34,210 nt of DNA from a virus: positions 1 through 34,210 of the IMG/VR virus record IMGVR_UViG_3300043410_000496; one strand, given 5' to 3'. Below the pieces are notes generated by a model. It had not been told where the DNA came from. It worked only from the letters and a program-made list of their open reading frames with translations, and did not search any database. The first letter of the stretch is position 1, and the number at the start of each line of letters is the position of its first letter. Shown one piece after another: positions 4,647 to 31,918 of this stretch. A program made the translations under genes and the position numbers.

Positions 4647-4655
4647 TGATATAAT
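4647..4655 (+). promoter_or_regulatory. Extended -10 promoter after capsid terminator
   Basis: TGA plus TATAAT (4650-4655) is a perfect extended -10 element right after the capsid terminator, with no recognisable -35. The start at 4682 has its own AAAGGAG (4667-4673), so this transcript has a short leader of about 20 bases. It would restart transcription into the connector genes. Confidence 0.6.
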
Positions 4656-4681: not shown

Positions 4682-5107
4682 ATGTCAGAAACTGAAAAGG
4701 TAGACGTAGCAGAGAATGCTGTAGTCGAAACTCCTGCAGAAGAGAAGGTAGAAGCAGTTGAGGCTGCTCCAGCTCCAGCAGTAGAAGAAGTAAAAGAAGT
4801 TCCAGCACCAGCTGCAGAAGAAACCGAAGGCAAAGGCCTGGGGGTAGTTAAAGGTGGAGCTATTGGTAGCACTGTAGTAAAGAATAAGAAGAAGGTAGAA
4901 GTTGTAGCACCAGCTGCACTACCTGCAAAGGATGAAACTGTAGCTCTTTACTCAAAAAAGAATTATCACTGGGCAGAGAACGGTGGAGCACTAAAGAGTG
5001 GCTACAACATTGTAGATAAGGCAAAGGCTGATAAGTGGCTTACACTTGCTGGAGTTAGAGTTGCTACTCCAGAAGAGGTAGCTGCTGCTTTTGGTTCAGG
5101 TAAGTAA
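4682..5107 (+). CDS. Acidic Ala/Glu/Pro-rich head protein with small C-terminal domain (paralogue A)
   Basis: A 141-residue protein. Residues 1 to about 60 are low-complexity acidic sequence rich in Glu, Val, Ala and Pro (APAPAVEEVKEVPAPAAEE). A basic linker (KNKKKVEVV) leads to a compact domain of about 50 residues at the end, with VALYSKKNYHWAENG and KADKWLTLAGVRVATPEE. The same plan, including the K(A/S)(E)AD-W-L core, is repeated in the next gene. I recognise no named family. The position after the capsid and before the connector suggests a capsid decoration or head-tail joining protein, but function is not shown. The start has a clear Shine-Dalgarno eight bases upstream. Confidence 0.8.
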   Translation: MSETEKVDVAENAVVETPAEEKVEAVEAAPAPAVEEVKEVPAPAAEETEGKGLGVVKGGAIGSTVVKNKKKVEVVAPAALPAKDETVALYSKKNYHWAENGGALKSGYNIVDKAKADKWLTLAGVRVATPEEVAAAFGSGK

Positions 5108-5109
5108 TT

Positions 5110-5385
5110 ATGGAAGACCAGATTGTTGAGCCAGAGGCTGTAGCAGAAGATGTAGTTGTTCCAGAAGCTATTGCTGAACCAGCTATTGAAACTGTTGTTG
5201 AGCCAGTAAAAGAAGAAAAGCCAAAGAAAAAGTCAGAGGGCTATGTTGAGGTATTTGCACTTAAGGGTGTATCTCAAAAAGGCCTTCCAGATATCAAGCC
5301 TGGAATTAATAGGCTAACAAAGAGTGAAGCAGATGCCTGGCTGGCACTGAAATCCTATATCACTCTTTATGAGGGAGACAAGTAA
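5110..5385 (+). CDS. Acidic small head protein (paralogue B)
   Basis: A 91-residue protein two bases after its neighbour. It has an acidic Glu/Val/Ala/Pro-rich N-terminus (residues 1-40), a Lys-rich linker (EEKPKKKSEG) and a short domain with YVEVFALKG, INRLTKSEADAWLALKSYI and a C-terminal TLYEGDK. The order and spacing match paralogue A, with a shorter tail, so the pair probably arose by duplication. Function is unknown; decoration or connector accessory is a guess from location. AGG (5099-5101) lies eight bases before the ATG. Confidence 0.78.
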   Translation: MEDQIVEPEAVAEDVVVPEAIAEPAIETVVEPVKEEKPKKKSEGYVEVFALKGVSQKGLPDIKPGINRLTKSEADAWLALKSYITLYEGDK

Positions 5386-7967: not shown

Positions 7968-7984
7968 CAAAAGGCTGTTATACT
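7963..7984 (+). promoter_or_regulatory. Extended -10 promoter of major tail gene overlapped by inverted repeat
   Basis: TGT plus TATACT (7979-7984) is an extended -10 element with no clear -35. The perfect 7-base inverted repeat TATAACA (7963-7969) and TGTTATA (7976-7982), separated by six bases, covers both the stop codon of the previous gene and the -10 box. It could be an operator or a small hairpin. Confidence 0.45.
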
Positions 7985-8021: not shown

Positions 8022-8036
8022 AAAGAGGTGAAAACT

Positions 8037-8660
8037 ATGGCATTTACAAACAGTTACAATCGTGGTGACGCTAAGAACATCGTTGTAGGAGCTGCTGCAT
8101 TGTTTATCAATGACACTGCAGAGGCAGAACTACCAGCGATCACTACCGATGGTGAAGGTGTATCGTACAAGGAGCAGCTATCCAACACAACAGGTTGGAC
8201 AAGCGTTGGTTATACAACTAACGGTCTTGAGCTGACTTTCCAGCCTGACTTCGGTGAGGTTAAGGTAGACCAGATGCTTGACGTTGCAAAGCTTTACAAG
8301 CAGGGAATGAAGGTAGAACTAAAGACTACTTTCGCAGAGGCAACTCTAACCAACCTTCTTGTGGCTACAGCAGCAACAAGCACTACCCTTGGTAGCGACC
8401 TTGGAGGAGACAGCATGGACATGCTTGCTGGAGAACTTGGAGCTTATCCAATCGAACGTTCTCTTATTGCAGTTGGTGCTGGCCCACAGCCTACCACAGG
8501 AACTACTGAGCGTATCTACAAGGCCAACCGTGTTCTGTCAATTCAGAACGTTACGGTTGCTGCAAAGCGTGATACAGCTACTGAATTTGAGGTTACTTTC
8601 CGTCTACTTCCAGACTCAACTGGATCATACGGTAAGATTATCGACCGCACATTCCCATAA
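8037..8660 (+). CDS. Major tail (tube) protein
   Basis: A 207-residue protein starting MAFTNSYNRGDAKNIVVGAA. The pattern of an N-terminal strand region, EQLSNTTGWTSVGYTTNGLELTFQPDFGEVKVDQ, and a C-terminal sheet with TATEFEVTFRLLPDSTGSYG is typical of siphovirus tube proteins (gpV-like fold). It is flanked by its own promoter and a strong terminator, as expected for an abundant virion subunit, and lies before the chaperone and tape measure genes. A GTG at 8028 could extend it, but AGAGGTG (8024-8030) is the ribosome binding site for ATG 8037, so the ATG was chosen. Confidence 0.85.
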   Translation: MAFTNSYNRGDAKNIVVGAAALFINDTAEAELPAITTDGEGVSYKEQLSNTTGWTSVGYTTNGLELTFQPDFGEVKVDQMLDVAKLYKQGMKVELKTTFAEATLTNLLVATAATSTTLGSDLGGDSMDMLAGELGAYPIERSLIAVGAGPQPTTGTTERIYKANRVLSIQNVTVAAKRDTATEFEVTFRLLPDSTGSYGKIIDRTFP

Positions 8661-8676: not shown

Positions 8677-8712
8677 ATAACCGTCTAGCGAAAACTAGGC
8701 GGTTATTTTTTT
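8677..8712 (+). terminator. Rho-independent terminator after major tail gene
   Basis: A 12-bp stem (8677-8688 with 8695-8706, one T-G wobble) around the loop CGAAAA, followed by seven Ts (8706-8712). Confidence 0.92.
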
Positions 8713-8720
8713 GGTAAACT
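8712..8720 (+). promoter_or_regulatory. Extended -10-like promoter, predicted leaderless start of chaperone gene
   Basis: TGG plus TAAACT (8715-8720) follows the terminator T-run directly. The ATG of the next gene (8727) is six bases after the hexamer and has no Shine-Dalgarno, so the transcript is predicted to be leaderless. The hexamer is weaker than TATAAT, which would suit low expression. Confidence 0.45.
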
Positions 8721-8726
8721 TAATGA

Positions 8727-9434
8727 ATGGCAAATAAAGTATATAAAAGTGAAACATTAGGGCTTGTAGATGGGAGTTCTATTTATGTTACTCCGTTAAA
8801 AATAAAATATCTGAGAGAGTTTATGGACTCGTTTAGAGAAATTAAAAAAGCGGTAAATGATGAAGATGCAATGGATAGACTTATACAATGTGTCTCTATA
8901 TGCATGAGGCAATACAGTCCACATAGAAGTACTATAGAGGACGTAGAAGATTTATTCGATCTAAAGACGATGTATCGTGTCTTAGAAATATCTGCAGACA
9001 TAGACATGTCTGAAAAGAAAACTAACAATGTTCAAGAGAGTGTGTCAGCTTCGAAGGCAGATTCCTGGGAAGACCTAGATTTGGTATCCCTAGAGTCTGA
9101 AATATTCTTAATTGGTATGTGGAAAGATTATGAAGATCTAGAAAGTTCTCTATCTATCCCTGAAATATTAGCAACGCTAAAAGCAAAGAGAGATGCGGAC
9201 TATATTGAAAAGAAGTTCCATGCAGCAATACAGGGCATTAATCTAGATGAGCAAATGGGACAGCAAGAGGAAGATCCTTGGGAACGAGTCAAGGCCAATG
9301 CTGCTGCTATTGCCAGTGGAAAAGATCCAAACCAAGTCAGGGTAGATTCAAATGATATTACATCAGTAACTGGAGTTGCAGCTAAACAAGCTGGTTTTGG
9401 AATCGGTATGGGACTTGAATATGAATCCATATAA
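8727..9434 (+). CDS. Tail assembly chaperone candidate, long form
   Basis: A 235-residue protein between the major tail protein and the tape measure, where siphoviruses encode tail assembly chaperones that coat the tape measure during tail assembly. Residues about 10-95 (LVDGSSIYVTPLKIKYLREF, RLIQCVSICMRQYSP, VEDLFDLKTMYRVLE) are clearly related to the whole of the next gene. A further 140 residues follow, acidic and helical, with SWEDLDLVSLESEIFLIGMW and KRDADYIEKKFHAAIQGIN. This is the gpG-T-like layout: a shared N-domain plus a unique extension. Here it is one continuous frame, not a frameshift product. The start lacks a ribosome binding site (leaderless). Confidence 0.75.
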   Translation: MANKVYKSETLGLVDGSSIYVTPLKIKYLREFMDSFREIKKAVNDEDAMDRLIQCVSICMRQYSPHRSTIEDVEDLFDLKTMYRVLEISADIDMSEKKTNNVQESVSASKADSWEDLDLVSLESEIFLIGMWKDYEDLESSLSIPEILATLKAKRDADYIEKKFHAAIQGINLDEQMGQQEEDPWERVKANAAAIASGKDPNQVRVDSNDITSVTGVAAKQAGFGIGMGLEYESI

Positions 9435-9444
9435 AACTAATCTA

Positions 9445-9453
9445 TGTTATAAT
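9445..9453 (+). promoter_or_regulatory. Extended -10 promoter of short chaperone and tape measure genes
   Basis: TGT plus TATAAT (9448-9453), a perfect extended -10 element without a visible -35, in the gap between the two chaperone genes. The following gene has AAAGGAG (9467-9473) before its ATG, giving a leader of about 18 bases. Confidence 0.6.
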
Positions 9454-9477
9454 TAAATAACCTACAAAAGGAGAACA

Positions 9478-9786
9478 ATGGCTATTACAATTAATGAAGC
9501 AACAGCTATTAAACTATTAGATGGAACTGTAGTAAATGCACGTCCACTAAAACTATCTCTTCTTCGTGAATTCTCAAAGGCATTTGCCAAGATTTCTGAA
9601 GTAGCGGATGATAACGATAAATCGCTTGATCTTCTTCTAGAGTGTGTAAAGATTGCGTTTAAGCAGTACGACCCAACACTACTAGAAAAGACTCAAGCAG
9701 AACTGGAAGACATGCTTGACATCAAGCTTGTTTACCAGATCATAGAAGAGGCATCAGGAGCAACTCTTGGTGAAGGACTTTTCTAA
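9478..9786 (+). CDS. Tail assembly chaperone candidate, short form
   Basis: A 102-residue protein that aligns over its length with residues about 1-95 of the preceding gene: LLDGTVVNARPLKLSLLREF against LVDGSSIYVTPLKIKYLREF, LLECVKIAFKQYDP against LIQCVSICMRQYSP, and LEDMLDIKLVYQIIEEA against VEDLFDLKTMYRVLEIS. It corresponds to gpG, the abundant short chaperone. It has a good Shine-Dalgarno and a better -10 box than the long form, so it is probably made in larger amounts. No downstream frame could be reached by a frameshift before the tape measure start at 9815. Confidence 0.78.
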   Translation: MAITINEATAIKLLDGTVVNARPLKLSLLREFSKAFAKISEVADDNDKSLDLLLECVKIAFKQYDPTLLEKTQAELEDMLDIKLVYQIIEEASGATLGEGLF

Positions 9787-9814: not shown

Positions 9815-12800
9815 ATGGCTGAGGACATTCAGTCCAATATTAGGATAAATGTTGATACCGCTGGTGCTCTAGCGAATATCAAGAATTTACAAGGAAGTCT
9901 TTCAGCCTTCTATAGCCAAATGGCAAAATCAGGTGCAGCATCAAATGCTGTTGTATCTGGAATGCAACAAAATTTTATCAACTCCGTAAATATGTCTGGC
10001 AAGTTTGCTGCCAGCATCCAAACCATCAAGAGTTCTACTGAGTCATTTAACCAGTCTCTTGAAAAGAATAAATTCTCCCTTAACGAATATTTCCGTTATG
10101 GTATTGCTGCATCAAAATCTTTCGGTAAGGTATTCAAGACTGAATACGAAACCATTAATAAGGTTGCTACTGAACGTGTCAAAGATATCCAGACTCAGTA
10201 CATCAAGATGGGTCGTGATGCAAATGGAGCACTCAAGTCTATTGCAATTAGACCACTTGCTCTTGATATGGAAAACCTATCAACAAAAACTCAGATGGCT
10301 GCTCAAAAACAGCAGATTCTTAATCAGCTTCTGAAGCAGGGTTCTACACAACTTCTAAACTGGGGTAAGAATACTCAGTGGGCTGGTCGTCAGCTTATGG
10401 TTGGTTTCTCTATTCCAATTGCTATGGCTGGAGCAGCAGCTGCAAAGGCATATCAGCAAATTGAGCAAGGCTCAATTCAGATTAGACGTGTCTATGGTGA
10501 CCTAAATACTACAGCACAAGAAACCGACATGATGGTTGGTAAGATTCAAAAGCTTGCAGCTTCATATACACAATATGGTGTAGCAGTATCTGACACAATG
10601 GCTATGGCAGCCCAGGCTGCTGCAATGGGTAAAACTGGAGCAGACCTTCTTGCTCAGATTGACCAGGCAACAAAACTTTCTGTTCTTGGTGGGGTAGACC
10701 AAAAGCAAGCACTAGAAACAACTATCTCACTTACCAATGCATTTGGTATTTCAACTTCTCAACTATCAGATAAGATTAATTATCTTAACGCAGTAGAAAA
10801 CCAGACAGTTCTATCCATTGAAGATATGACAACTGCTATTCCAAAGGCTGCTCCAATTGTTAAGCAGCTTGGTGGAAACGTAGAAGATCTAGCCTTCTTC
10901 ATGACTGCAATGAAAGAAGGTGGAGTCAACGCATCTGAAGGTGCTAACGCCATCAAATCTGGTCTTGCAGCTATAATTAATCCTACTAAGAAGGCATCAG
11001 ACTTCCTTTCTGGATTTGGAATCAATGTTTCAAATATTGTTAAGAATGATAAGGGAAACCTAAAGAAAACAGTTGTTGATTTTGGAAATGCTCTAAATAC
11101 TCTTGACCCACTTAACCGTGCAAAAGCAATCGAAATGATGTTTGGAAAATTCCAGTTTGCACGTATGTCAACCTTGTTTAAAAACGTAACAGACGAATCA
11201 AGCCAGGCATCAAAGGCTATGGAACTTGCGAACATGTCTGCAATTCAAAGAGCAGCAATGGCAAGGAAAGAGTTGGACAAGATTCAGTCTTCCCCAATGT
11301 ACAAGTTCCAAAAGGCAATGGCAGACTTCCAGCTTAAGATGGCTCCCGTAGGAGAAGCATTCCTAAAAGCTGTAACTCCTGCACTTGAGGTAGTTGGAAA
11401 ACTGCTTACATGGTTTAATAAGCTTGGTGATGGATCAAAGAGTTTTATTGTAAACACTATTGCTGTTGTTGGTGGACTTGCTCCAATTGTTCTTATGACA
11501 GTTGGTCTAGTTGGAAACGGTATCGCAAACTTCCTAAAGTTATTCTCATGGGTAAAGAGTGTATTTAACAAGGCTACAACAGCATCTCAGGTACTTGGAG
11601 AGACAACAAGCTACATGACCCAAGAGCAGCTTCAGGCTGCTTCAGTAGCTGCATCTCTTGACCAGATTCACTCAAAACTTAAGCAAACGATTACTTCTGA
11701 AGCAGAAGCAATCTCTCTATACACACAAGAGCTAAAGAAGGCTAATCTAGCTGCAAGCCAATTTGTAGGACCTGTAATGGCCTTTAGAGGTAATGGCGGT
11801 AGGAAGATGGCTACTGGAGGTATGGTTGTTGGCCCTGGTGGTCCTAAAGATGATGCTGTACCTACTAATCTATCTAATGGTGAGGCAGTAATTGACGCTG
11901 CTACAGTAAAGAAGAACCCAGCAATCATTAGTGCTCTTTTCCAGGGTAGAAAGATCAATGTTCCTGGATTCAAAGATAATAACTCAAAGATGTTCCGCAC
12001 GTATACAAATGCTGTTGCACTTCTTGGTAGCGATACAAACCAAGCACTAAAGGGCGGAGGAGTCTCATCAAGCAATCTTAGCTCTGAGATTAAATCTTTG
12101 GGTGCAGGAATGAATGCTCCAATTATTGAAGCAGTTGCTAAATCTCTGGGTGCTACAAACAACAAGCAAGTGTTGGCTATGTTGCAGTCAAATCCAGAAC
12201 TTGCAAAATTTGCAACAGATATTCAAATTGGAGTTGCGACTGCAATAGAAAAACAGGGTGGAAAAATAAATGACCCTAAGCTTTCAGAAATTTATCAAAA
12301 TGTTGCTAGAAAAGAGTCTGCCAAGAGGGGCCAGGCCTATGCTGATGCTACTGAACAATTCTTAACTCAACCAACAACATTTGAAGACTCAACAATTCAA
12401 AGAGTATCTTCATCAAATCCAAACAAGACTAGATCTGTAGGACGAAAGTCTATATTTAAAGGCCTTCAATCATATAGAAGTAAAAACTTTACCCCTATTG
12501 CAAATGCTCTAGGGACAGACACTACTGGTCTTGTAAAAGCTCATATGAGCGAACCACAGATGTCAGATCTAAATACTATAGCAAACAAGTATAATCTAGA
12601 ACTATCTACTGTGGCAACCGCTGCAGCTCAAAGAATGAAAGATGGTATTGTATCAACATACCAGAGCGTATCTAAGGCAGTTAGAGAGTCTACTCGTCAA
12701 GCATCGCCATCTAAAGATGCGTATGATGCAGGAGCTAATATTGGTAAGGGTGCTATTAATGGAATTAAGTCAGAGCAACCAGAAGCAGAGGCAGCAGGAA

Positions 12801-15800
12801 AAGCAGTAGCTGAAGCTGTAAATTCTGGGGTAACTCAGGCAAAGAAGCAAAATGTTGGAAGCATTACTAGACAAGCATATTCTAGAGATTACCAATTAAA
12901 GAGTCTTGAGATTCAGCGTAAGCAAGCACTAATGATGGGTGCAGATACTGCAGCCATTGACAAAGAGATTAAGGCACGTAGAGCATCTCTGGCTGCATCT
13001 GTTAAAGAGCGTATTGCTAAAGAAAAACTTGCATCTGTAGAGACTCAAGAGGCAATTGCAGCTGTACAAGCTGGAACTGCTAAAAAGATGATGACAGTAG
13101 GAGAGGGTCTCTCAAAACTTGATGGTAAGTTCACCAAGTTCAGTGCAGGAATCACTACTGCAGTATTCTCATTAGGAATGCTTCCTGGACCATTAGGAGA
13201 TATTGCAAATGCAATTAGTCCAGTAATTGGAATCATAAGCCTACTCGGCAGCGGACTTGAGTTCCTATCAAAGAAAGTAGCAATATCTTCAACAGCTATT
13301 GATGTCGAAAATGCTGCAAGAGCTGTTGAAACAGGAGAGATGGAGGCTGAGAATGTTGCTAGAGGCATTGAGGTAGCAGAAACAGGTGCTCTAACAATAG
13401 CTCTTGGTGCTTTAGAGCTACCACTACTTCCAGTTATTGCAGGATTTGTGGCCCTAGCTGCAATTATTGGTGTTGGTATAGCAATCAATAATTCCCTGAA
13501 TGAAGCAAATAAAAAAGCTTTGGAAGATGCTAAGAAGCCTAAGCAGATTGCAGCAGATACTAAAGCAGCTATGGGAGCTTTTGGAAATCTAACTGGGTCA
13601 ACACTAAAAATGCCACAAATTGCTGGTGCAGCTGCTGGAGCAGCTAGTAAAAATGGAAAGCAAGCTGGAGATATTCAGACATTACTAGACAGTTCAGATT
13701 TTAAGAATAAAGATAGCGAAATTGGAAAAGTTATTGGTGATGTCAAGGGCATGGGGGCAAAGAATGCAAAGAACTACATCAAGAATCTAGGCCAAACATT
13801 GCTAGCAAGCGGAATGGATAAGGCTGCAGTAGATAGCCTGATTAAGGCAATTCAAATTGCTGCTGGTAAAGAAAATCTTAAAATTGAATTTGCTGATATT
13901 GACCTAACAACAAAGACTGGTCGTGCAGGATTTGCTAAAACTGCAGCTGAGACCCTGGCAAAAATTTCTACAAATACGAATTCTTCAGAATTTAAACAAT
14001 GGCAAAGGGGTGCACGTTTAAGTAGGGATGCAAAAAATGGGAAGGTTGATCTAGGATTTGCTAGTCAAGAAGATATTAATGCTGTCAATGCATACAAAGC
14101 TAACATGGCAGCATATCTTAAAATTGCCACAGCGTCTTCCGCAGCATCCACTGACTTTAAGCAGGGGATTGCAAATATCTCAACTGAGTTGGCTAATGGA
14201 CTTATTACTTCAAAACAGTTTACTGGCTCTCTTAGTGAGATGGCTGTAAATATTTCAAAATCAGCAGCTGGAAAAACTAATTTGCTGAATACTATTGGTT
14301 CTCTAGGAGGGCAGACAGCAAAGGATGCTGCTAGCTCACTTAAATCAGTAAATGATCAGCTATTGCTAATGACAATCCTACAAGCAGATCCTACAAAGGG
14401 ACAGAGTATTGTAAGCCTTATAAAGGACAAAAAGATTGCACAAGCAAAAGCAGAAATGGCTAAGTTTGGATCAGTTATTAAATCAGCACTTGGTTCTGAT
14501 TCAGGCTCAGGCTCTGGTGGAGGCGGTGGAGGCGGTGGCTCCACTAAGACAAACCTACTAAAGCAAACATCAACAGATATTGCTAGTGCAAATCTTAGAC
14601 TAACAATGCTTAAGGATTCAAAGAAATATGTTGCTGGATTCATCGATCTACTAGCAACAGCTGATGATGCCACTAGAAAACAATACATTGTTGCTGGAAA
14701 GCTTACTAGCAAGGGGCTAAAGCTAAAGGAGCTATTTGACCAAAAAGTAGTTTCTGAATTTATTGTAAAGCAAAAAACTGCAACAGTTGGTTTTGCAGAA
14801 GAAGTGAAGGTACGAGCAAGTCTATCTGCTAAAGTAAAGGATCAGACAACTCTGACAAAGATGCTTGCAGATGCAGACTTCAAAGCAGCATATGCATCAG
14901 CCTTGAATATTACTAATGCAGTAAAGCGTAAAAAGGCCATCAATGATCTAATTGCTGCAGAGACAAACTTTATCAATGCAGAACAAACATCTGCTAATGC
15001 ATCTCTTACTGCAGCAGAAAAGCAACAAAAGGTAGTTGACTACCTCCAGGCCAAGCTTGATAAGGCTACTGCTGAAAGCGGAATGCCAATTCTTCAAGAT
15101 AAGATTGATGTCTATAATGATGGACTAAATGTTATTTCGGTCAAGGAAGATGCAATTAACAAAGCATATGATGCAAGAGTTAAAGCACTTGAAGAAATTC
15201 AAAAAGCACAAGAGGATATATCTCAGCAACAACAAGATCAACTAGATGTTGCAGATGCAATCACTAAGGGTGATATGGCAGCAGCAGCAAGAGCCGTTCA
15301 ACAGTCACGTAAGAATGCTGCGGAACGTGCAATGAGAGATCAAAGCACTGCTCTAGAAACAGCAAGACAAACAGAGCTAAATAGCATTTTGGTATCAATT
15401 AATGGCGAAATGCTAAACAGAGAATCAATTGAAAAGAGAATCTCTGACATTCAGGCTAAAATGTATGATATTCAGCTTAATACCTTAGATGCTATTAAGT
15501 CTCAAGTAGTTGAGGCTCAAAGAACTCAGACTATTCTTGCTGCCAATCAAACAATGAGTGATGATGCAGCATTTGCTAATCAAACGCCAGCAGCACCTGC
15601 TCCAATTAGCAAAACAGAAGCTGCTAGACTTGCACTTATTCACCTTCAAAGCAGTAGTGTAGAGGCTCTATCGGCTGAGGAAAGAGCACTTTTAAACATA
15701 TCTTTGAGTCCTAAGACTCCTGTAGCACCAGCTGCTCCAAAGGCCTTGGTCCAGGCTCCAGCAGGACTACAGTTCCTTCCAAAAGATGAATTAGCTAAAA

Positions 15801-16162
15801 TGGGTTATTACGCTACAGGTGGATTTATTGCTAGAGGATCAGATACTGTTCCTGCAATGCTGACTCCTGGAGAGTTTGTAATGAACCGTGGTGCAGTATC
15901 AAAATATGGCTCAGGACTTATGGATAGAATTAATTCTGGAACATTTGACATGCCTTCTTATGTAACTGCACCTCAAATTTCGCAGGTATCACCAGTAAAC
16001 AATAACATTTCATCAAACGTTGACAACAGTTCAGTGTATAATAATAGCTATAGTGTTAATATTCACACTACTGGCTCACAGGATACAGATTCGATTGCTA
16101 GAGCAGTAATTGGAAAGATCCGTGAATACGATAGCCAGCGTGTAAGAGGAGTTAGAATTTAG
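9815..16162 (+). CDS. Tape measure protein
   Basis: The 2115-residue protein is the longest in the window. It sets tail length and helps DNA leave the virion. Residues about 230-450 carry the TP901-type tape measure core (VSDTMAMAAQAAAMGKTGAD, LSIEDMTTAIPKAAPIVKQL, MKEGGVNASEGANAIKSGLA). Hydrophobic segments near 545-575, 1115-1150 and 1190-1225 could insert into or cross the host membrane. A Gly-rich linker (about 1565-1576) precedes a long helical, coiled-coil-rich part. Two copies of an ATGG motif occur near 665 (ATGGMVVGPGG) and 1998 (ATGGFIARGSDTVPAMLTPG). No peptidase or lysozyme domain was recognised. AAGAGGTG precedes the ATG. The stop overlaps the next GTG start by one base. Confidence 0.95.
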   Translation: MAEDIQSNIRINVDTAGALANIKNLQGSLSAFYSQMAKSGAASNAVVSGMQQNFINSVNMSGKFAASIQTIKSSTESFNQSLEKNKFSLNEYFRYGIAASKSFGKVFKTEYETINKVATERVKDIQTQYIKMGRDANGALKSIAIRPLALDMENLSTKTQMAAQKQQILNQLLKQGSTQLLNWGKNTQWAGRQLMVGFSIPIAMAGAAAAKAYQQIEQGSIQIRRVYGDLNTTAQETDMMVGKIQKLAASYTQYGVAVSDTMAMAAQAAAMGKTGADLLAQIDQATKLSVLGGVDQKQALETTISLTNAFGISTSQLSDKINYLNAVENQTVLSIEDMTTAIPKAAPIVKQLGGNVEDLAFFMTAMKEGGVNASEGANAIKSGLAAIINPTKKASDFLSGFGINVSNIVKNDKGNLKKTVVDFGNALNTLDPLNRAKAIEMMFGKFQFARMSTLFKNVTDESSQASKAMELANMSAIQRAAMARKELDKIQSSPMYKFQKAMADFQLKMAPVGEAFLKAVTPALEVVGKLLTWFNKLGDGSKSFIVNTIAVVGGLAPIVLMTVGLVGNGIANFLKLFSWVKSVFNKATTASQVLGETTSYMTQEQLQAASVAASLDQIHSKLKQTITSEAEAISLYTQELKKANLAASQFVGPVMAFRGNGGRKMATGGMVVGPGGPKDDAVPTNLSNGEAVIDAATVKKNPAIISALFQGRKINVPGFKDNNSKMFRTYTNAVALLGSDTNQALKGGGVSSSNLSSEIKSLGAGMNAPIIEAVAKSLGATNNKQVLAMLQSNPELAKFATDIQIGVATAIEKQGGKINDPKLSEIYQNVARKESAKRGQAYADATEQFLTQPTTFEDSTIQRVSSSNPNKTRSVGRKSIFKGLQSYRSKNFTPIANALGTDTTGLVKAHMSEPQMSDLNTIANKYNLELSTVATAAAQRMKDGIVSTYQSVSKAVRESTRQASPSKDAYDAGANIGKGAINGIKSEQPEAEAAGKAVAEAVNSGVTQAKKQNVGSITRQAYSRDYQLKSLEIQRKQALMMGADTAAIDKEIKARRASLAASVKERIAKEKLASVETQEAIAAVQAGTAKKMMTVGEGLSKLDGKFTKFSAGITTAVFSLGMLPGPLGDIANAISPVIGIISLLGSGLEFLSKKVAISSTAIDVENAARAVETGEMEAENVARGIEVAETGALTIALGALELPLLPVIAGFVALAAIIGVGIAINNSLNEANKKALEDAKKPKQIAADTKAAMGAFGNLTGSTLKMPQIAGAAAGAASKNGKQAGDIQTLLDSSDFKNKDSEIGKVIGDVKGMGAKNAKNYIKNLGQTLLASGMDKAAVDSLIKAIQIAAGKENLKIEFADIDLTTKTGRAGFAKTAAETLAKISTNTNSSEFKQWQRGARLSRDAKNGKVDLGFASQEDINAVNAYKANMAAYLKIATASSAASTDFKQGIANISTELANGLITSKQFTGSLSEMAVNISKSAAGKTNLLNTIGSLGGQTAKDAASSLKSVNDQLLLMTILQADPTKGQSIVSLIKDKKIAQAKAEMAKFGSVIKSALGSDSGSGSGGGGGGGGSTKTNLLKQTSTDIASANLRLTMLKDSKKYVAGFIDLLATADDATRKQYIVAGKLTSKGLKLKELFDQKVVSEFIVKQKTATVGFAEEVKVRASLSAKVKDQTTLTKMLADADFKAAYASALNITNAVKRKKAINDLIAAETNFINAEQTSANASLTAAEKQQKVVDYLQAKLDKATAESGMPILQDKIDVYNDGLNVISVKEDAINKAYDARVKALEEIQKAQEDISQQQQDQLDVADAITKGDMAAAARAVQQSRKNAAERAMRDQSTALETARQTELNSILVSINGEMLNRESIEKRISDIQAKMYDIQLNTLDAIKSQVVEAQRTQTILAANQTMSDDAAFANQTPAAPAPISKTEAARLALIHLQSSSVEALSAEERALLNISLSPKTPVAPAAPKALVQAPAGLQFLPKDELAKMGYYATGGFIARGSDTVPAMLTPGEFVMNRGAVSKYGSGLMDRINSGTFDMPSYVTAPQISQVSPVNNNISSNVDNSSVYNNSYSVNIHTTGSQDTDSIARAVIGKIREYDSQRVRGVRI

Positions 16163-21987: not shown

Positions 21988-21996
21988 TGCTATAAT
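21988..21996 (+). promoter_or_regulatory. Extended -10 promoter, predicted leaderless start
   Basis: TGC plus TATAAT (21991-21996) begins on the base after the stop codon of the previous gene. The ATG (22003) follows after six bases with no Shine-Dalgarno. No -35 element is visible. Confidence 0.6.
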
Positions 21997-22002
21997 AGAT
22001 TT

Positions 22003-23076
22003 ATGTTTACAAATTCTGGTTCTTCTCTTTTAGCAAAATATATGTTAGGTCAGTTACCTGCATTTGCTACCCACATTGCTATTGGCTGTGGAACAAAAGC
22101 TCTTACGACAGAACCATCTGGCAACCCATATATCAACCAATCAAAGCTAGACTTTGAAACCTATAGATCAAAGATCATTTCGAGAGGGTACGTAAACAAT
22201 GGCGGTGTTCCAGAATTATCTCTTATTGCAGAATTGCCAACAAACAACAGATATGGCATTACAGAGATTGCCCTATTTCCAGGACTAGAGAACCCATCTG
22301 CCAAAGACTATGACAGTAGAATATTGCTTAACTTTGTAGACGAGTCTTATGTATATAGCTCCACAAGCATTACTGACATTTCTTCTACAACTATAAACAT
22401 TCCAAACAGTGGAACCATCAGCGACTCAGGAAAAACAGAGCCATTCTTCATCAGTTCATCTGATGGGCAGCTAACCTCTGAAGATAGAGAAAAGAGATTA
22501 GAGGCCCCAAGATTCTTGGATAAAGCATTAATCATGAAATCAACATCGACTGGGGTAGTTGAAGCAAGAAACATCAATATTGATCTAAGCAAAAACTCTC
22601 CAGAAGACTATGTATCATTAGCATACTCATTCCTAAATGATGCTGTTGGTGATGGTCTAGGAGTCCAAAATACCTATACTGTAACTATGCAGCTAATGAC
22701 ATCATCTGAGACTGATTATTATACACACTCATTTACTATTGATGCAGCAAGTCTAACAGATTCAAGATACAATGTAGAAGCTTTCCAGATTAAGGACTTG
22801 ACAGCAGTGGGAACATCTCCTACGCTATATAACATTAACAGAGTAAGATTCTCAATCGCAAAAACAGGGGGATCTGCAACAGAGCTTAACTGGCTACTTC
22901 TTGACGGACTCAGAATTGATAATACTTCATCATTTAACTCATCATTTGGATTAGTTGCATATAAAGTAATTGTTAATCCAGTAACTATTGGAATGACTAC
23001 ATTGGGAATGCCAATTATTAAAGCATCGAATACTACAAACTTTATCGAATTTAGATTTAGGTTGGATGTCACATAG
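22003..23076 (+). CDS. Minor tail / baseplate protein
   Basis: A 357-residue protein beginning MFTNSGSSLLAKYMLGQLPA, with ATHIAIGCGTKAL, RYGITEIALFPGLENP and long beta segments toward the end. The opening resembles phage tail proteins in which AIG-G and ITEI-LF mark a collar-like beta domain found at baseplate and fibre-attachment proteins, but I do not assign a family with certainty. The middle (residues about 190-300) contains YTVTMQLMTSSETDYYTHSF and LNWLLLDGLRIDN, possibly a jellyroll. The start has a -10 box six bases upstream and no ribosome binding site, so it is predicted to be leaderless. It overlaps the next gene by TAGTG. Confidence 0.65.
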   Translation: MFTNSGSSLLAKYMLGQLPAFATHIAIGCGTKALTTEPSGNPYINQSKLDFETYRSKIISRGYVNNGGVPELSLIAELPTNNRYGITEIALFPGLENPSAKDYDSRILLNFVDESYVYSSTSITDISSTTINIPNSGTISDSGKTEPFFISSSDGQLTSEDREKRLEAPRFLDKALIMKSTSTGVVEARNINIDLSKNSPEDYVSLAYSFLNDAVGDGLGVQNTYTVTMQLMTSSETDYYTHSFTIDAASLTDSRYNVEAFQIKDLTAVGTSPTLYNINRVRFSIAKTGGSATELNWLLLDGLRIDNTSSFNSSFGLVAYKVIVNPVTIGMTTLGMPIIKASNTTNFIEFRFRLDVT

Positions 23077-23602: not shown

Positions 23603-23611
23603 TGCTATAAT
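23603..23611 (+). promoter_or_regulatory. Extended -10 promoter, predicted leaderless start
   Basis: TGC plus TATAAT (23606-23611) lies two bases after a TAG stop. The next ATG (23619) is seven bases beyond the hexamer. No -35 and no Shine-Dalgarno are visible. Confidence 0.6.
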
Positions 23612-23618
23612 TGAACCT

Positions 23619-24032
23619 ATGAGCAGATTACCAAACATTAGTCCTGGACAGCCAGTTGACGCACTATTCTTAACAGACATGGTGGCTTCCATCAATTCAC
23701 TGTATGATACACAAATTACTAGTGGAAAGAATGCCAACATTAGTGGTAACATCCTTCCAACTGCTAATCTTTCTGTAATCGCTTTTAAGCAAACTATTTC
23801 TGCATCTGGAACATCTGTTCCTGTTGGATTTGGAACTGCCAAGTTCGCAGCACCACCAATCGTTACTGCAACCATTGACTCATCTGGAATTGCAAGCACT
23901 AATAACCTATCGGTATCTGTGCAAAGCATCACTACAGGTGGATGTAATATTGTTGCTAAGTTTGATACTGGAGTAGCATCTGTTGTAGTAAATGTTATTG
24001 CAATTGGATACCCTTCAGCAACTGGAGCATAA
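23619..24032 (+). CDS. Small tail fibre / receptor-binding candidate
   Basis: A 137-residue protein. Residues 1-40 (GQPVDALFLTDMVASINSLY) look like the helical attachment segment found at the start of small tail proteins. The C-terminal 85 residues (VPVGFGTAKFAAPPIVTATI, NLSVSVQSITTGGCNIVAKF) resemble the H-lectin-like beta-sandwich at the tips of some phage fibres, with the pattern of a strand, PP-VTATI, then SV-S-T--G. That resemblance is by eye. It has its own leaderless promoter and overlaps the regulator gene by TAATG. Confidence 0.6.
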   Translation: MSRLPNISPGQPVDALFLTDMVASINSLYDTQITSGKNANISGNILPTANLSVIAFKQTISASGTSVPVGFGTAKFAAPPIVTATIDSSGIASTNNLSVSVQSITTGGCNIVAKFDTGVASVVVNVIAIGYPSATGA

Positions 24033-24794: not shown

Positions 24795-25102
24795 TGGCTG
24801 AACGCAAAGACCGTATGGCTTTGCTCAGTCGCTATGCTAAGTTGCACACAAAGCACTATGAGCAAAGAGTCACACTCAATCTAAATGTTGAGCAATGGGC
24901 TGCAGATGCACTTATTGAATCATACACTTTACCATATTGCTATGATCTGTTAGAATATTATTTCGGGGTAGCCCAGTCACCCAATTGGAAATATTTCGCA
25001 AACTATGCAGACAAAATTATTGATGCACGAGAAGACTACAACCAAGATTTAAAGGAGAGAGCCGAACGCCGTTTAAGGGCTAAGGAGTGGTTAAATGAGT
25101 AA
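24794..25102 (+). CDS. Hypothetical helical protein upstream of helicase (loader candidate)
   Basis: A 102-residue protein, mostly helical, with an aromatic middle (LPYCYDLLEYYFGVAQSPNW) and a charged C-terminal helix (DLKERAERRLRAKEWLNE). It is coupled to the gene before by TAATG and overlaps the helicase start by eight bases. A small gene directly before a DnaB helicase often encodes a loader or other replication accessory, so that is the best guess, but no AAA+ motif or known loader motif is visible. Confidence 0.65.
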   Translation: MAERKDRMALLSRYAKLHTKHYEQRVTLNLNVEQWAADALIESYTLPYCYDLLEYYFGVAQSPNWKYFANYADKIIDAREDYNQDLKERAERRLRAKEWLNE

Positions 25103-26315
25103 TACAGAGTCAAAGCTAATTTCAGCAGTTCTACAGGACAAGCAGGTTCACGTTTTGCTACAGGCAAACGTAGAGGGCATTCTTAGAACTCACAATGATA
25201 TCTGGCAATTTATTCGTAACTACGCCGATATGAATGGTACGGTTCCTCCTACTAGTCTCGTAGTCGAAAAGTTTCGTGATTTCGTCCCTGTAGAGGGCAT
25301 AGGAGCCACGAAGTACCACCTAGAGGAATTGCAGTCAGAATTCCTTACAGACAGCCTCAAGGACGTTCTGAGGACCACTGCAGCCGATGTTCAGGCAGGG
25401 CAGGGAGTCAAGGCACTAGAAGACATTATTACTAAGACTTCTGCTCTTCGTAAGAACACTACTGTTATTCGTGATATTGATGTTATTGATATTGAGGATG
25501 CTGTTGCTTATTATGAGCATGTTAAGAAGCAGAATGAGCTTGGTTCTATTGGTATTAAGACTGGTCTTGCTGGTTTTGACAATTATCTTCCTGCTGGTAT
25601 CACTCCAGGACAGCTAGGCGTATTCCTTGCTTATCCAGGTATTGGTAAGTCATGGATGGCCCTATACTTTGCGGTACAGGCATGGAAGCAGGGAAAGTCA
25701 CCACTAATCATCTCTCTTGAAATGAGTGAGACAGAAGTCCGTAACCGTGTATTTACTATCATGGGTGAAGGTCTTTGGTCACATCGTAAGCTTTCTGCTG
25801 GTGCTGTAGAGACTGATGATCTTCGCCGTTGGCACAAGAAGGAACTTCAGGGTAAGCCAGAGTTCCACATTATCTCTAATGACGGAGCAGGAGATGTTTC
25901 TCCATCTGTTATTCGTGCAAAGATTGACCAGTATAAGCCAGACCTTATTATTGTAGACTACCTACAGCTCATGAGTCCAAACCAGAAGTCGGACAACGAG
26001 ACTGTTCGTATGAAGAACCTTTCTCGTGAGCTGAAGCTTTTGGCAATTGCAGAAGAGATGCCAATTATCGCTATCTCGTCAGCAACTCCAGATGATGTTA
26101 ATAAGCTTGATACTGTTCCTACTCTGGGACAGACTGCTTGGTCACGTCAGATTGCCTATGACGCTGACTGGGTTCTAGCACTTGGTCGTGGAACCAACTC
26201 TGATATTATTGAGTGTGTATTTCGTAAGAACCGTAACGGATTCATGGGTGAGTTCTTGGTCCAGGCTGACTTCGACAAGGGCTGGTATAAGTACAAGGAT
26301 TATGAAGATAACTAG
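25095..26315 (+). CDS. dnaB: Replicative DNA helicase, DnaB family
   Basis: Ring helicase that unwinds DNA ahead of the fork. The C-terminal RecA-like domain carries Walker A AYPGIGKS (residues 179-186, with K185), followed by LIISLEMSETEVRNRV, a Walker B IIVDYLQLM (D288) and a C-terminal segment QTAWSRQIAYDADWVLALGR typical of DnaB. The N-terminal 150 residues are helical (QDKQVHVLLQANVEGILRTH) and correspond to the primase-interacting domain. At 406 residues it is shorter than bacterial DnaB (about 470), as is common in phages. Start ATG 25095 overlaps the previous gene by eight bases and has AAGGAG seven bases upstream. Confidence 0.93.
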   Translation: MSNTESKLISAVLQDKQVHVLLQANVEGILRTHNDIWQFIRNYADMNGTVPPTSLVVEKFRDFVPVEGIGATKYHLEELQSEFLTDSLKDVLRTTAADVQAGQGVKALEDIITKTSALRKNTTVIRDIDVIDIEDAVAYYEHVKKQNELGSIGIKTGLAGFDNYLPAGITPGQLGVFLAYPGIGKSWMALYFAVQAWKQGKSPLIISLEMSETEVRNRVFTIMGEGLWSHRKLSAGAVETDDLRRWHKKELQGKPEFHIISNDGAGDVSPSVIRAKIDQYKPDLIIVDYLQLMSPNQKSDNETVRMKNLSRELKLLAIAEEMPIIAISSATPDDVNKLDTVPTLGQTAWSRQIAYDADWVLALGRGTNSDIIECVFRKNRNGFMGEFLVQADFDKGWYKYKDYEDN

Positions 26316-26321
26316 TATAAT
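26316..26321 (+). promoter_or_regulatory. -10 box TATAAT, predicted leaderless start
   Basis: TATAAT (26316-26321) follows the helicase TAG stop without a gap. The ATG at 26328 is six bases beyond it and no ribosome binding site is visible. No TGn extension and no clear -35 are present, so it is weaker than other boxes here. Confidence 0.4.
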
Positions 26322-26327
26322 AGATGT

Positions 26328-26675
26328 ATGTTTAAACACATACATCATAAGCCTATAAAGAAGTTTGGGTTTGCTGGATCTATTCACGATGATTCAGCAA
26401 TCCAGCGTCTTCGTGCTGAGTATATGCATTTAATAGGTTTAGAGATGAAAGATTCGGGGTACGTTCCAAGATTGGATATTGACCCAGACTTCACTATCAG
26501 TTATAATCATATAAGAGAACACTTTGAATTTACATTATCAGTATATGGATCGTATGTAGGAAAGACTAGAGCAAAATGGACAATAGGAATAGACGGAACA
26601 GAAGTAATAGCTATACAGCAGAGCAAATCAAACGTATCCTCGTTGGATCAGGAATCTCAATTGAATCAGAAGTAG
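26328..26675 (+). CDS. Small protein of unknown function overlapping primase
   Basis: A 115-residue protein. The first half is basic and helical (MFKHIHHKPIKKFGF, AIQRLRAEYMHLIGLEMKDS), the second a predicted beta-sheet (FTISYNHIREHFEFTLSVYG, AKWTIGIDGTEVIAI). The last 25 residues or so are encoded in the 100-base overlap with the primase start and look Ser/Gln-rich and unstructured. The pattern is that of a folded alpha-beta protein, but no family is recognised. Its own -10 box makes it likely to be expressed independently of the helicase gene. Confidence 0.6.
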   Translation: MFKHIHHKPIKKFGFAGSIHDDSAIQRLRAEYMHLIGLEMKDSGYVPRLDIDPDFTISYNHIREHFEFTLSVYGSYVGKTRAKWTIGIDGTEVIAIQQSKSNVSSLDQESQLNQK

Positions 26676-27520
26676 ATTCTGACTACATCATCTTTTGCCC
26701 ATACCACAATAACTCTCGCTCACCTGCTGGTGAAGTTGACAAGACTAGCGGAATCTTCTTTTGCTTTTCTTGTCAAAAGATTGCAGAACTTCCAGAATTC
26801 CTAATGCATACATCTGGTCGAACCTATTTTGAGGCTGTTCGTTTCATTAAATCTAAAGAAACAGAGACAGATATCTCTAGCGAAATTGATAAGAAGCTTA
26901 TCGATAAGCCCATGTATACCCCATATGATGATGTTCTAATTAAGCGACTAAATGTCCAGGCACTTGAAGCACCACGTGCTATGCGTTACTACAATGGACG
27001 ATTAATTAATGAAGCATCTGTCAAAAAGTTTGGATTGGGATTTTCAGAAAAGCAGGACATGGTAACTATTCCTGTTCACTCACCAGATGGAATTGCTGTT
27101 GGCTTTGTTGGTCGTTCAATTGAGGGCAAAGAGTTTAAGAATACTCCAGGACTACCTAAGTCAAAAGTACTTTTTAATCTACATAGAATTAAGACTGCAG
27201 GAAAGGTATATGTTGTCGAATCATCATTCGATGCTATTCGACTTGACCAATGCGGTTTTCCAGCGGTAGCTACATTGGGTGCAAACGTATCCAACTACCA
27301 AACAGACCTACTTCAAAAATACTTCAATGAGATATATGTCATTGCAGATAACGATGAAGCTGGCGGTAACATGAAGGATAAGTTGATCGAAAGACTTGGT
27401 TCTCGTGTTAGCGTTATTACACTAGATAAACAATATAAGGATATTGGCGATATGTCTGATGAAGCAATAAAAAATATTGAAGAATCGTTTGACAAATCTA
27501 TCGCTGCTATGCTAAACTAA
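26576..27520 (+). CDS. dnaG: DNA primase, DnaG type with CHC2 zinc ribbon and TOPRIM
   Basis: Makes RNA primers for lagging-strand synthesis. A CHC2 zinc ribbon is formed by C41, H44, C63 and C66 (CPYHNN, then FFCFSCQK). The TOPRIM fold carries the catalytic E215 in KVYVVESSFDAIR and the acidic DxD at D258/D260 in IADNDEAGG. The 314-residue length is about half of bacterial DnaG (about 580): the C-terminal helicase-binding domain is missing or minimal, which is usual for phage primases. The best start is ATG 26576, inside the previous gene; the next in-frame starts would cut into the region before the zinc ribbon. Confidence 0.88.
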   Translation: MDNRNRRNRSNSYTAEQIKRILVGSGISIESEVDSDYIIFCPYHNNSRSPAGEVDKTSGIFFCFSCQKIAELPEFLMHTSGRTYFEAVRFIKSKETETDISSEIDKKLIDKPMYTPYDDVLIKRLNVQALEAPRAMRYYNGRLINEASVKKFGLGFSEKQDMVTIPVHSPDGIAVGFVGRSIEGKEFKNTPGLPKSKVLFNLHRIKTAGKVYVVESSFDAIRLDQCGFPAVATLGANVSNYQTDLLQKYFNEIYVIADNDEAGGNMKDKLIERLGSRVSVITLDKQYKDIGDMSDEAIKNIEESFDKSIAAMLN

Positions 27521-27551
27521 AATACCAATTCAGATACAGGAGAAATATATT

Positions 27552-28205
27552 ATGAGTATTATCAAGGGACTAAAGGACATCAGTGCAATCCTAGACAAGC
27601 CGAAGTTTGAGTCTTCGGGTCAGAAGGTTCGCTGGGTCAAGTTGGCAGACGGACAGTCTGCAAAGATTCGATTTGTTGAGGAGCTGGATGAAGATTCGGC
27701 AAGTTACTCAGCTGAACGTGGTCTGTCGGTTGTGATCGCAGAACACACTAACCCAAAGGACTACAAGCGTAAGGCTGCTTGTACTATGGATACTGAGGGT
27801 CGTTGCTATGGTTGTGAGATGGCACGTAAGGATCCAAAGAGTGGCTGGCGTTCACGTCTCCGCTTCTACTGCAACGTTATCGTAAATGATGGTATTGAAG
27901 ATCCATATGTAGCCGTTTGGTCGCAGGGTATCTCAAAGCAGTCAGCGTTTAACACCATCCGTGAGTACGCTCTTGATACTGGTTCGGTATCTAACCTTGA
28001 GTGGAAGATTAAGCGTAATGGACAGGGAACTGAAACCAACTATACGCTTCTTCCAATTAAGCCAGACGCAGAACCATACCAGTGGGGAAGCCTGGACACC
28101 TTCGATCTTGAGAAAGTAGTTCGTGAAGTTCCTTACGCAGAGCAGGAGTCGTTCTACTTTGGATTCGATACTTCGTCTGCTACCTCGTCAAACACTGACT
28201 GGTAA
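27552..28205 (+). CDS. T4 gp32-like single-stranded DNA-binding protein with zinc site
   Basis: A 217-residue protein resembling the core of T4 gp32, which covers ssDNA during replication and recombination. The zinc ligands match in order and spacing: H65, C77, C85, C88 (ACTMDTEGRCYGCEMARKD), compared with H64, C77, C87, C90 in T4 gp32. Around them are OB-fold strands (VRWVKLADGQSAKIRFVEE, RLRFYCNVIVNDGIEDPYVA). The acidic C-terminal half (EVPYAEQESFYFGF) and Ser/Thr/Asn tail fit a protein-interaction tail. AGGAGAA precedes the ATG. A strong terminator follows, so it ends this operon and is probably made in quantity. Confidence 0.8.
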   Translation: MSIIKGLKDISAILDKPKFESSGQKVRWVKLADGQSAKIRFVEELDEDSASYSAERGLSVVIAEHTNPKDYKRKAACTMDTEGRCYGCEMARKDPKSGWRSRLRFYCNVIVNDGIEDPYVAVWSQGISKQSAFNTIREYALDTGSVSNLEWKIKRNGQGTETNYTLLPIKPDAEPYQWGSLDTFDLEKVVREVPYAEQESFYFGFDTSSATSSNTDW

Positions 28206-28219
28206 CATTAATTAGCTTT

Positions 28220-28249
28220 GGGGAGATAGGGAAACTTATCTCCCCTTTT
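28220..28249 (+). terminator. Rho-independent terminator after ssDNA-binding gene
   Basis: A perfect 9-bp stem (28220-28228 with 28237-28245; GGGGAGATA with TATCTCCCC) around an eight-base loop, followed by TTTT. Confidence 0.88.
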
Positions 28250-28253
28250 GCTA

Positions 28254-28282
28254 TTGACTTTTGAAATAAACTGTGTCATACT
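28254..28282 (+). promoter_or_regulatory. Full -35/-10 promoter of DNA polymerase operon
   Basis: TTGACT (28254-28259), a 17-base spacer, and CATACT (28277-28282) with TGT before it. It lies just after the terminator. AAGGAAG (28300-28306) is the ribosome binding site for the ATG at 28312, so the leader is about 20 bases. Confidence 0.68.
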
Positions 28283-28311
28283 TTTAAGACAACAAACGAA
28301 AAGGAAGATAT

Positions 28312-31300
28312 ATGAGTTACGCTGGACTTCACGTTCACACTCACTACAGCCTATTTGATGGCATCGCTACCCCACAGGAATATGTGGACCGAGCTGTAGA
28401 AATTGGTATGCCAGCCATTGCCATTACTGACCACGGTTCGCTATCTGGACACCGTGAAATGTACCGTGCTGCTAAGGAAAAGGGCATCAAGCCAATCCTG
28501 GGCATTGAGGGGTACATTACTAAGGATCGCTTCGACCACGAAGATAAGAAAGACAAGAATGACCCACTTGACCTAAACTACAACCACCTCATTGTTCTAG
28601 CTAAGAATGAGAAGGGTCTTGAGAACCTTAACAAGCTAAATGAACTTGCCTGGACTGAGGGATTCTTTAAGAAGCCTCGTATGGACTGGGCAATTCTAGA
28701 GCAGTATAAGGAAGGCCTTGTAATCACCTCTGGCTGTCTTTCAGGATACCTAGCTAAGGCAATCGAAGCAGATAACCTAGCTGCTGCTAAGATGCACCTT
28801 CAGTGGGCAAAGAACACCTTTGGTGACGACTACTACATTGAGGTAATGCCTCACAACCCTGCAGAAGTAAACAAGACTATTCTTGCTCTTGCAGATGAAT
28901 TTGGTCTAAAGCCTATCGTTACTCCAGACTGCCACCACGCAGATACTTCTCAGCGTGAGATTCAGGAGCTAAAACTTATCCTCAATTCTTATGCAAATAA
29001 GACTGTTAAGGATGTTAGCTACGACAAGTCTGCAGAGATGGATAATCTCATGGACCGTCTAGACTATCTATATGGTGCAGACCGCCAAATGACTTTCCGT
29101 GACTTTGAGATTCACCTACTTTCGGATGTAGAGATGCACCAGGCTATGGAAGCCCAGGGTATCGATCGTCAGGACATGTACGACAACACCCTTGAAATTG
29201 TAGATAAGATTGAAGACTACAACATTAAGGACCACCTAGACCTTCTCCCTGCACAGTACCAGGACCCAGACAGCGAAGTAAAAGGCCTCGCAATTGAGGG
29301 ACTAACTGCTATGGGTCTAGAAAAGAATGAGGAATACCTAGCACGTCTTGAGGAAGAGCTTCAGGTCATTAAGGACAAGAAGTTCGGACCATATTTCCTA
29401 GTAGTTCGTAACATGATTAACTGGGCTAAGAAAGAAGACATCATGGTAGGGCCAGGTCGTGGCTCTGCTGCTGGTTCGCTAGTATGCTACGCCCTTGGAA
29501 TCACTGATATTGATCCTATCAAGCATGGTCTACTGTTCTTCCGATTCATTAACCCAGAACGTAATGACTTCCCAGATATCGATACTGACATCCAGGACTC
29601 ACGCCGTGAAGAGGTCAAGGACTATCTAGTTCGCCAGTATCGTCACGTAGCCTCTATCGCAACCTTCCTTGAATTTAAGGGCAAGGGTATCGTACGAGAC
29701 ATTGCTCGTGTTCTGATGGTTCCACTAACTGACGTTAATAAGGTTCTAAAGGTTGTTGACGACTGGGACGACTATTGTTCGTCAAAGCAGACTCAGTGGT
29801 TCCGTGAGAAGTATCCTGAGATTGAAGAGTATGGAGAGCAACTTCGTGGTCGCATTCGTGGAACTGGTATCCACGCTGCAGGTGTTGTAACATCAAAGCA
29901 GCCTATCTTTAAATTTGCACCACTAGAGACTCGAACCTCGCCAGGAAATAAGGAACGTATCCCTGTTGTGGCGGTAGACATGGAAGAAGCAGAGCGTATT
30001 GGTCTTATTAAGATTGATGCACTGGGTCTTAAGACCCTATCTGTTATCCAGGATACTCTAAAGATTATCAAGGATCGTACTAGCAAGACAATCGACCTGC
30101 ACGACATTGATATGGAAGATAAGAACGTCTATAGTATGCTATCTGATGGATACACTAAGGGTGTCTTTCAGTGTGAAGCTACTCCATATACAAACCTACT
30201 AGTCAAGATGGGTGTAAAGAGCTTTGCAGAACTTGCTGCATCGAATGCTCTAGTTCGTCCAGGTGCTATGAATACTATTGGTAAAGACTACATTGCTCGT
30301 AAGCATGGTAAGCAGAATCTAGACTACAAGCACACCAAGATGAAGGCATTTACCCAGGAGACCTATGGCTGTATTCTGTACCAGGAACAGGTTATGCTTG
30401 CCTGTACAGAACTTGGCGGTATGACAATGGCTGAGGCTGATAAGGTTCGTAAGATCATTGGTAAGAAGAAGGATGCTAAGGAATTCGACCAGTTCAAGGA
30501 CAAGTTCGTATCTGGAGCTTCTCAGTATTTGAACCCAGCAGTAGCAGAAGAGCTATGGCATGACTTTGAGGCCCACGCAGGGTACTCGTTTAATAAGTCT
30601 CACGCTGTAGCATACTCTACCGTATCATACTGGACTGCATGGCTGAAGAATTACTACCCAATTGAGTTTATGTATTCGCTACTTAAGAATGAAAGCGATA
30701 AGGATGCTCGTACAGAGTACTTGATTGAAGCAAAGCGTATGGGAATCCCTGTACGTCTACCACACATCAATGATTCAGACATTGACTTTAAGATTGAGGG
30801 CAAGGGTATCCGATTTGGACTATCAGCAATTAAGTTCATTTCAGACAACATCGCTAGCAAGTATATTGCTGCTCGTCCTTTTGGCTCGTACAAGCAACTT
30901 GAGGAATTCACTTTTGGTAAGGGTAATGGTGTTAATTCTCGTGCTCTTCAGGCTCTTAGAGTTGTTGGTGCTGCAACCTTTGAAGACAATCCACGAGACG
31001 ATGAAGAGGTTCGTGAAAACCTTTATGAGTATCTAAACCTACCAGAGTTTAACATCTCTGTTCCACAGCACTATCACGCATTCATCAATGACGTAGATGA
31101 TTTTGAGGAAAAGGGTTCATTCATTCTTATGGGAATGATCAAGGGCATCAAGCGTGGTAAAGGATGGTCTCGTGTAGAAATCCTTGACAAGACTGGTAGT
31201 GTTGGTATCTTCGATGAAGAGCAGACACAGATTGAGCCAGGAAAAACCTATCTGCTTCTAGCAAGTGACAACCGTATTGTCAATGCTATCCCAGCAGATG

Positions 31301-31590: not shown

Positions 31591-31918
31591 CGACATTTGT
31601 GAGCAGTTGCATGAGACTGCAGTTAAAAAGGGTTTCTGGGGTGTCTTGGAGGACGCTACACAGGAGCAAACAGATATCTTCGTAACCAAGCAGCTAATGA
31701 TGATCGTGTCAGAAGCTGTAGAGGTTATGGAGGCTATCCGCAAGGATAAGGGAGAAGAAGAGATTGCAGATGAAATGGCAGACATTCTAATTCGTACCTT
31801 TGACCTATATGCAGGTCTAGTAGAGCATGGGTATACCAAAGTATCTCTAGATCACGCATTTGAAAAGAAGACAAATATCAACCAGGCACGTCCTGAGAAG
31901 CATGGAGTAAGATTCTAA
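31583..31918 (+). CDS. MazG-like nucleotide pyrophosphohydrolase
   Basis: A 111-residue all-helical protein with the MazG metal-binding signature: E44xxE47 (SEAVEVMEAI) and E64xxD67 (DEMADILIRT). The end, NINQARPEKHGVRF, matches the usual MazG tail with RP and KHG. These enzymes hydrolyse NTPs or dNTPs to the monophosphate and PPi, removing abnormal nucleotides or adjusting pools; a role in lowering ppGpp has been proposed for phage homologues. It overlaps the polymerase gene by eight bases and the NrdH gene by TAATG, so it belongs to the same replication/nucleotide operon. Confidence 0.82.
   Translation: MFDDICEQLHETAVKKGFWGVLEDATQEQTDIFVTKQLMMIVSEAVEVMEAIRKDKGEEEIADEMADILIRTFDLYAGLVEHGYTKVSLDHAFEKKTNINQARPEKHGVRF

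Follow-up and report, generated by a model that had tools for sequence, protein, structure and literature searches.

Separate short and fused long tail assembly chaperone genes in place of a programmed frameshift in a clade related to Streptomyces phages

Two adjacent genes of an uncultured virus, here termed LONG and SHORT, very likely encode the equivalents of lambda gpGT and gpG, respectively, with a gene fusion, a second copy of G and separate starts replacing the programmed frameshift at a slippery site that is usual for chaperones of this type and absent in the virus's clade. The genes were found in IMG/VR record IMGVR_UViG_3300043410_000496, analysed over its positions 1 to 34,210 (34,210 nucleotides; hereafter the window). 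Both sit between the major tail protein gene and the tape measure gene, as in gpG/gpGT-type chaperones. On the plus strand, the major tail protein gene (8028..8660; phrog_2175, E 5e-32; phrog_885, major tail protein, E 3.5e-4), whose homologues carry that annotation in Streptomyces phages, is followed by LONG (8727..9434), which encodes 235 residues in one frame, comprising an N-domain (residues ~1-98), a linker and a T-domain (residues ~114-235). SHORT (9478..9786) encodes 102 residues with the N-domain only, and the tape measure protein gene (9815..16162; 2115 residues; phrog_10030, tail length tape measure, E 1.3e-84) lies downstream. An earlier sequence-only reading of this DNA had placed both open reading frames at these coordinates. 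It had also described the order as opposite to the usual one; LONG does precede SHORT, but "opposite" is partly a matter of wording, since LONG sits where G-T did in the ancestor, and the addition is SHORT, placed before the tape measure gene.

The two proteins share an N-domain, as had been read from the letters. Residues 1-87 of LONG align with SHORT at 34% identity and 62% positives over 90 columns (BLASTP, E 8e-19), and a profile-profile comparison returned 99.9% probability over 98 columns. The extension of LONG beyond SHORT, put earlier at about 140 residues, amounts to ~137. The family phrog_10504 matches both LONG residues 1-98 and SHORT (E 8.5e-11), while phrog_10474 matches LONG residues 131-204 and not SHORT. 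In tblastn searches, LONG bridges two open reading frames annotated as tail assembly chaperone in Streptomyces phages; such homology with annotated chaperones is expected for the gpG/gpGT type. By homology, LONG is G plus T, its two halves matching two families that are separate in the cultivated Streptomyces relatives. Structure prediction, proposed earlier as a check, yielded AlphaFold models of moderate quality (pLDDT 71 and 63), in which SHORT and the LONG N-domain have the same element order, two strands and then helices. Among viral folds, SHORT comes closest to an annotated tail assembly chaperone (TM 0.80, E 1.5e-5); the solved HK97 chaperone 2ob9 gave a non-significant match (TM 0.36, E 6.8). 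Searches of Pfam and of the sequences of solved structures returned nothing useful for the pair, and no relative of SHORT was found in GTDB bacterial genomes.

Apart from one Rhodococcus record, the cultivated relatives that we found are all Streptomyces phages, those with a classification belonging to Stanwilliamsviridae; this suggests an actinobacterial host for the window's phage. In the Streptomyces phages inspected, the N and T families are two open reading frames with T in the -1 frame, and a joined chaperone CDS is annotated in Emma1919 and Yaboi. The chaperones of Stanwilliamsviridae (such as MulchMansion, Yaboi and Emma1919) resemble those of the window in their homologous N and T domains and in their slot between major tail protein and tape measure, but they have one N-domain, and their T, in the -1 frame, is accompanied by a slippery CCCAAAT or CCCGGAA. 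A scan with T-domain profiles collected 38 distinct unfused loci. In all 38, T lies in the -1 frame, overlapping by 40-91 nt, and a single N-domain is present; most carry a slippery CCCAAAN or GGGAAAC, and the remainder carry CCCGGAA, whose position suggests that it is their slip site. Four environmental contigs with unfused genes (L203, L216, L229 and L250) have T domains that score near those of the window's clade.

Throughout the window's clade, the search for the pair in related phages recovered the fused arrangement. In the best 80 relatives, a one-frame LONG follows the major tail protein gene, with SHORT and then the tape measure gene behind it; among them only L056 is without SHORT, and it ends after LONG. 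Five of 113 further fused loci, some of which are the same contigs as the best 80 relatives, are without SHORT, each ending within 136 nt of LONG. Every complete fused locus thus carries one SHORT. Among the loci examined, no mixed state was seen, neither a fused LONG whose downstream region is complete yet lacks SHORT nor a frameshift pair accompanied by SHORT. Comparison of the two groups supports the exchange at the level of sequence: the sisters have a -1 slippery overlap and one N-domain, whereas the window's clade has G and T fused in one frame, no slippery site conserved at the junction and a second N-domain gene.

In trees built with FastTree and quick IQ-TREE, the fused clade lies within the frameshift phages. 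In the tape-measure tree, the fused loci come out as one group (support 0.997), as they do in the T tree (0.869), where they are nested among frameshift phages; the major-tail-protein tree does not recover them as one group. Single groups are also formed by the LONG N-domains (0.99) and by the SHORT proteins (0.944); deep branching in the N-domain tree is poorly resolved, with a support of 75 for SHORT plus LONG. Mean identity to the nearest frameshift G proteins is 56% for SHORT and 40% for the LONG N-domain. SHORT may derive from uptake of the G gene of a related frameshift phage rather than from copying in place. Because the major-tail-protein tree differs and the N-domain tree is weak at depth, both this route and in-place duplication are possible.

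The start signals of the two genes differ consistently. LONG is preceded by a predicted intrinsic terminator in the gap behind the major tail protein gene (8679..8712, plus strand; AACCGTCTAG..CTAGGCGGTT followed by a T-run; stem dG -17.2) and by an extended -10, TGGTAAACT (8712..8720, plus strand), which ends 6 nt before the LONG ATG and is predicted to be a leaderless promoter. The extended -10 of SHORT, TGTTATAAT (9445..9453, plus strand), stands 24 nt before its ATG, and a Shine-Dalgarno sequence, AAAGGAG, is read at 9467..9473 (plus strand). Defining leaderless spacing as an extended -10 TGnTAnnnT ending 6-9 nt before the ATG, we found it at LONG in 55/57 distinct loci, the remaining two keeping the hexamer without TG, against 68/8973 other ATGs (0.76%). 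It recurred in 72/80 further distinct loci that had not been used to find the signals; of the eight loci without it, several have a wrongly called start or differ by one base. The Shine-Dalgarno match of LONG is 0-3 nt in the 57 distinct loci. At SHORT, 56/56 distinct loci show an extended -10 at a distance of 23-48 nt upstream together with a Shine-Dalgarno match of 4-7 nt, and 76/76 further distinct loci show an extended -10 within 60 nt, in agreement with the promoter claimed for it earlier. The tape measure gene has a Shine-Dalgarno sequence, and an extended -10 in one locus only. Both promoters are predicted from consensus matches; a generic scan for sigma-70 promoters and terminators gave no excess and listed neither of them nor the upstream terminator, missing the promoters because extended -10 promoters lack the -35 that it requires. 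Most frameshift relatives start G with a leadered extended -10 and a Shine-Dalgarno sequence, as at SHORT; the leaderless start of LONG is therefore a new element.

A terminator-like hairpin occurs at the junction of major tail protein and LONG in 56/56 distinct loci (median -21 kcal/mol), and at 0/56 junctions of LONG with SHORT and 0/53 of SHORT with the tape measure gene. The promoter motifs named in the sequence-only reading held up, but the terminator before LONG had been overlooked. The description of the LONG promoter as weak and leaderless was right as to spacing, but weakness does not follow from the -10 alone: an exact TATAAT is found in 18/57 LONG promoters, and in 53/56 SHORT promoters. 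A weak LONG start rests also on the missing Shine-Dalgarno sequence and on codons. Measured against the major tail protein gene, SHORT exceeds LONG in codon adaptation in 45/47 loci; the rare codons AGR/ATA make up 1.6% of SHORT and 5.5% of LONG. No gene measured in the window is less well adapted than LONG (0.344); the value for SHORT is 0.614.

We then propose a model for how the clade makes its two chaperones. In the order of events that we infer, the G and T frames of the clade ancestor became one open frame, which would have abolished the -1 frameshift, and a second G-domain copy was gained between T and the tape measure gene. SHORT would have kept the ancestral start, with extended -10, leader, Shine-Dalgarno sequence and good codons, and LONG would have gained a leaderless promoter behind the terminator of the major tail protein gene, together with poor codons. 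In lambda, whose short and long chaperones share an N-domain and serve here as the model for function, excess gpG binds the tape measure and rare gpGT recruits the tube protein via T, at a gpG:gpGT ratio of ~30:1 (PMC5009743). Lambda makes the pair by a -1 frameshift, whereas the window's clade has two genes; by homology, SHORT and LONG should act in the same way, SHORT coating the tape measure in many copies and LONG, as a minor species, recruiting tail-tube subunits through its T domain. As proposed earlier, transcription and initiation most likely determine the short:long ratio, which fits the conserved promoters, the terminator, the Shine-Dalgarno contrast and the codon bias; the ratio would be the joint product of the two promoters, the two modes of initiation and the choice of codons. 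Transcripts from the LONG promoter may run on into SHORT, because no terminator was found between the genes. In the actinobacterium M. tuberculosis, leaderless transcripts are extensive (PMC3898074). The fuller history, in which an actinophage clade exchanged the frameshift once for fusion plus duplication, the leaderless LONG and leadered SHORT starts behind the terminator set the ratio, and the freed N-domain of LONG diverged, is probable.

The consistent differences between the LONG N-domain and SHORT at a few conserved positions would also suit a paralogous SHORT with another role, such as that of a specialised chaperone of tape measure or tube, with LONG having taken over assembly and the ratio being irrelevant. 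We consider this unlikely: SHORT is closer to the frameshift G proteins than the LONG N-domain is (56% against 40%), has its promoter and Shine-Dalgarno sequence laid out in the ancestral way, and occurs at all complete fused loci but at none of the frameshift loci. Still less probable is that LONG itself yields a short form, by a dnaX-like shift into an early stop or by proteolysis, with SHORT merely adding to it. The -1 and +1 frames do reach a stop soon past the junction, at a median of 5-6 codons, and the linker varies, but off-frame early stops of this kind are expected by chance, and a search for a residual frameshift site, raised earlier as a possible refutation, found no in-frame slippery heptamer at the junction common to at least five of 57 distinct LONG genes; the widespread in-frame heptamers of LONG sit only away from it. 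Owing to the one-frame fusion and the missing conserved junction heptamer, we do not class the window's pair as a frameshift chaperone. An assembly or sequencing artefact, conceivable for an uncultured contig, is refuted by the breadth of the fused family, since the arrangement recurs in many diverged contigs of different metagenomes (57 distinct LONG genes, then 84 more), and we give it practically no weight.

Chaperones encoded by a separate short gene and a fused long one are a known kind, going by a citing paper: some T4-like phages have one short gene and one long fusion gene, and no frameshifting (Vladimirov, Gautam and Davidson 2022, cited in PMC10885494). The sequence-only reading was right to propose a gene pair instead of a frameshift, but did not mention this precedent. 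As far as that citation goes, the likeness is one of gene layout, with a long gene fusing the short part to a downstream part; the window's clade differs in consisting of relatives of Streptomyces phages, in its adjacent genes, in a traceable change from a -1 frameshift and in its conserved leaderless versus Shine-Dalgarno starts, and its origin is seemingly independent. EA1 Microbacterium phages resemble it in that their chaperones are predicted as separate open reading frames where related phages frameshift; the excerpt of that report (PMC6856279) does not mention duplication of the short domain in a fused long gene. In Gordonia cluster DJ phages, no chaperone gene was recognised and a candidate is without a slippery site (PMC12859696), which makes them a possible place for a two-gene or fused arrangement. 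The literature searched, which included few subscription papers, yielded no account of the arrangement in this clade. What is new is the phage group, the traceable transition from the frameshift state and the conserved asymmetric start signals.

The chaperone frameshift is among the most conserved recoding events of tailed phages, and why it is retained is a standing question. Sister groups with homologous proteins, one using the frameshift and the other two genes, offer a natural comparison of what coupling does: whether the ratio alone is enough, how it is kept without coupling, and whether identity of the shared N-domain is required. Annotators also gain a reason to expect fused long genes rather than missed frameshifts.

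Elsewhere in the window, a perfect extended -10, TGCTATAAT, stands 6-7 nt ahead of the start of two other genes (21988-22003 and 23603-23619), and leaderless promoters may therefore be general in this phage. Further extended -10 motifs lie at 4647-4655, 26 nt before the gene at 4682, and at 7976-7984, 43 nt before the major tail protein gene; from these, several promoters seem to lie inside the late region. The adjacent proteins of 4682-5107 and 5110-5385 have acidic, alanine- and glutamate-rich N-terminal parts and ends that look alike, and are possibly another paralogous pair. The protein of 23619-24032 has a sub-threshold match to an H-type lectin (E 3.7e-4) and is possibly a receptor-binding part. 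A replication set at 25095-33155 comprises a DnaB-like helicase, a DnaG-like primase, DNA polymerase III alpha, a MazG-like protein and RecA.
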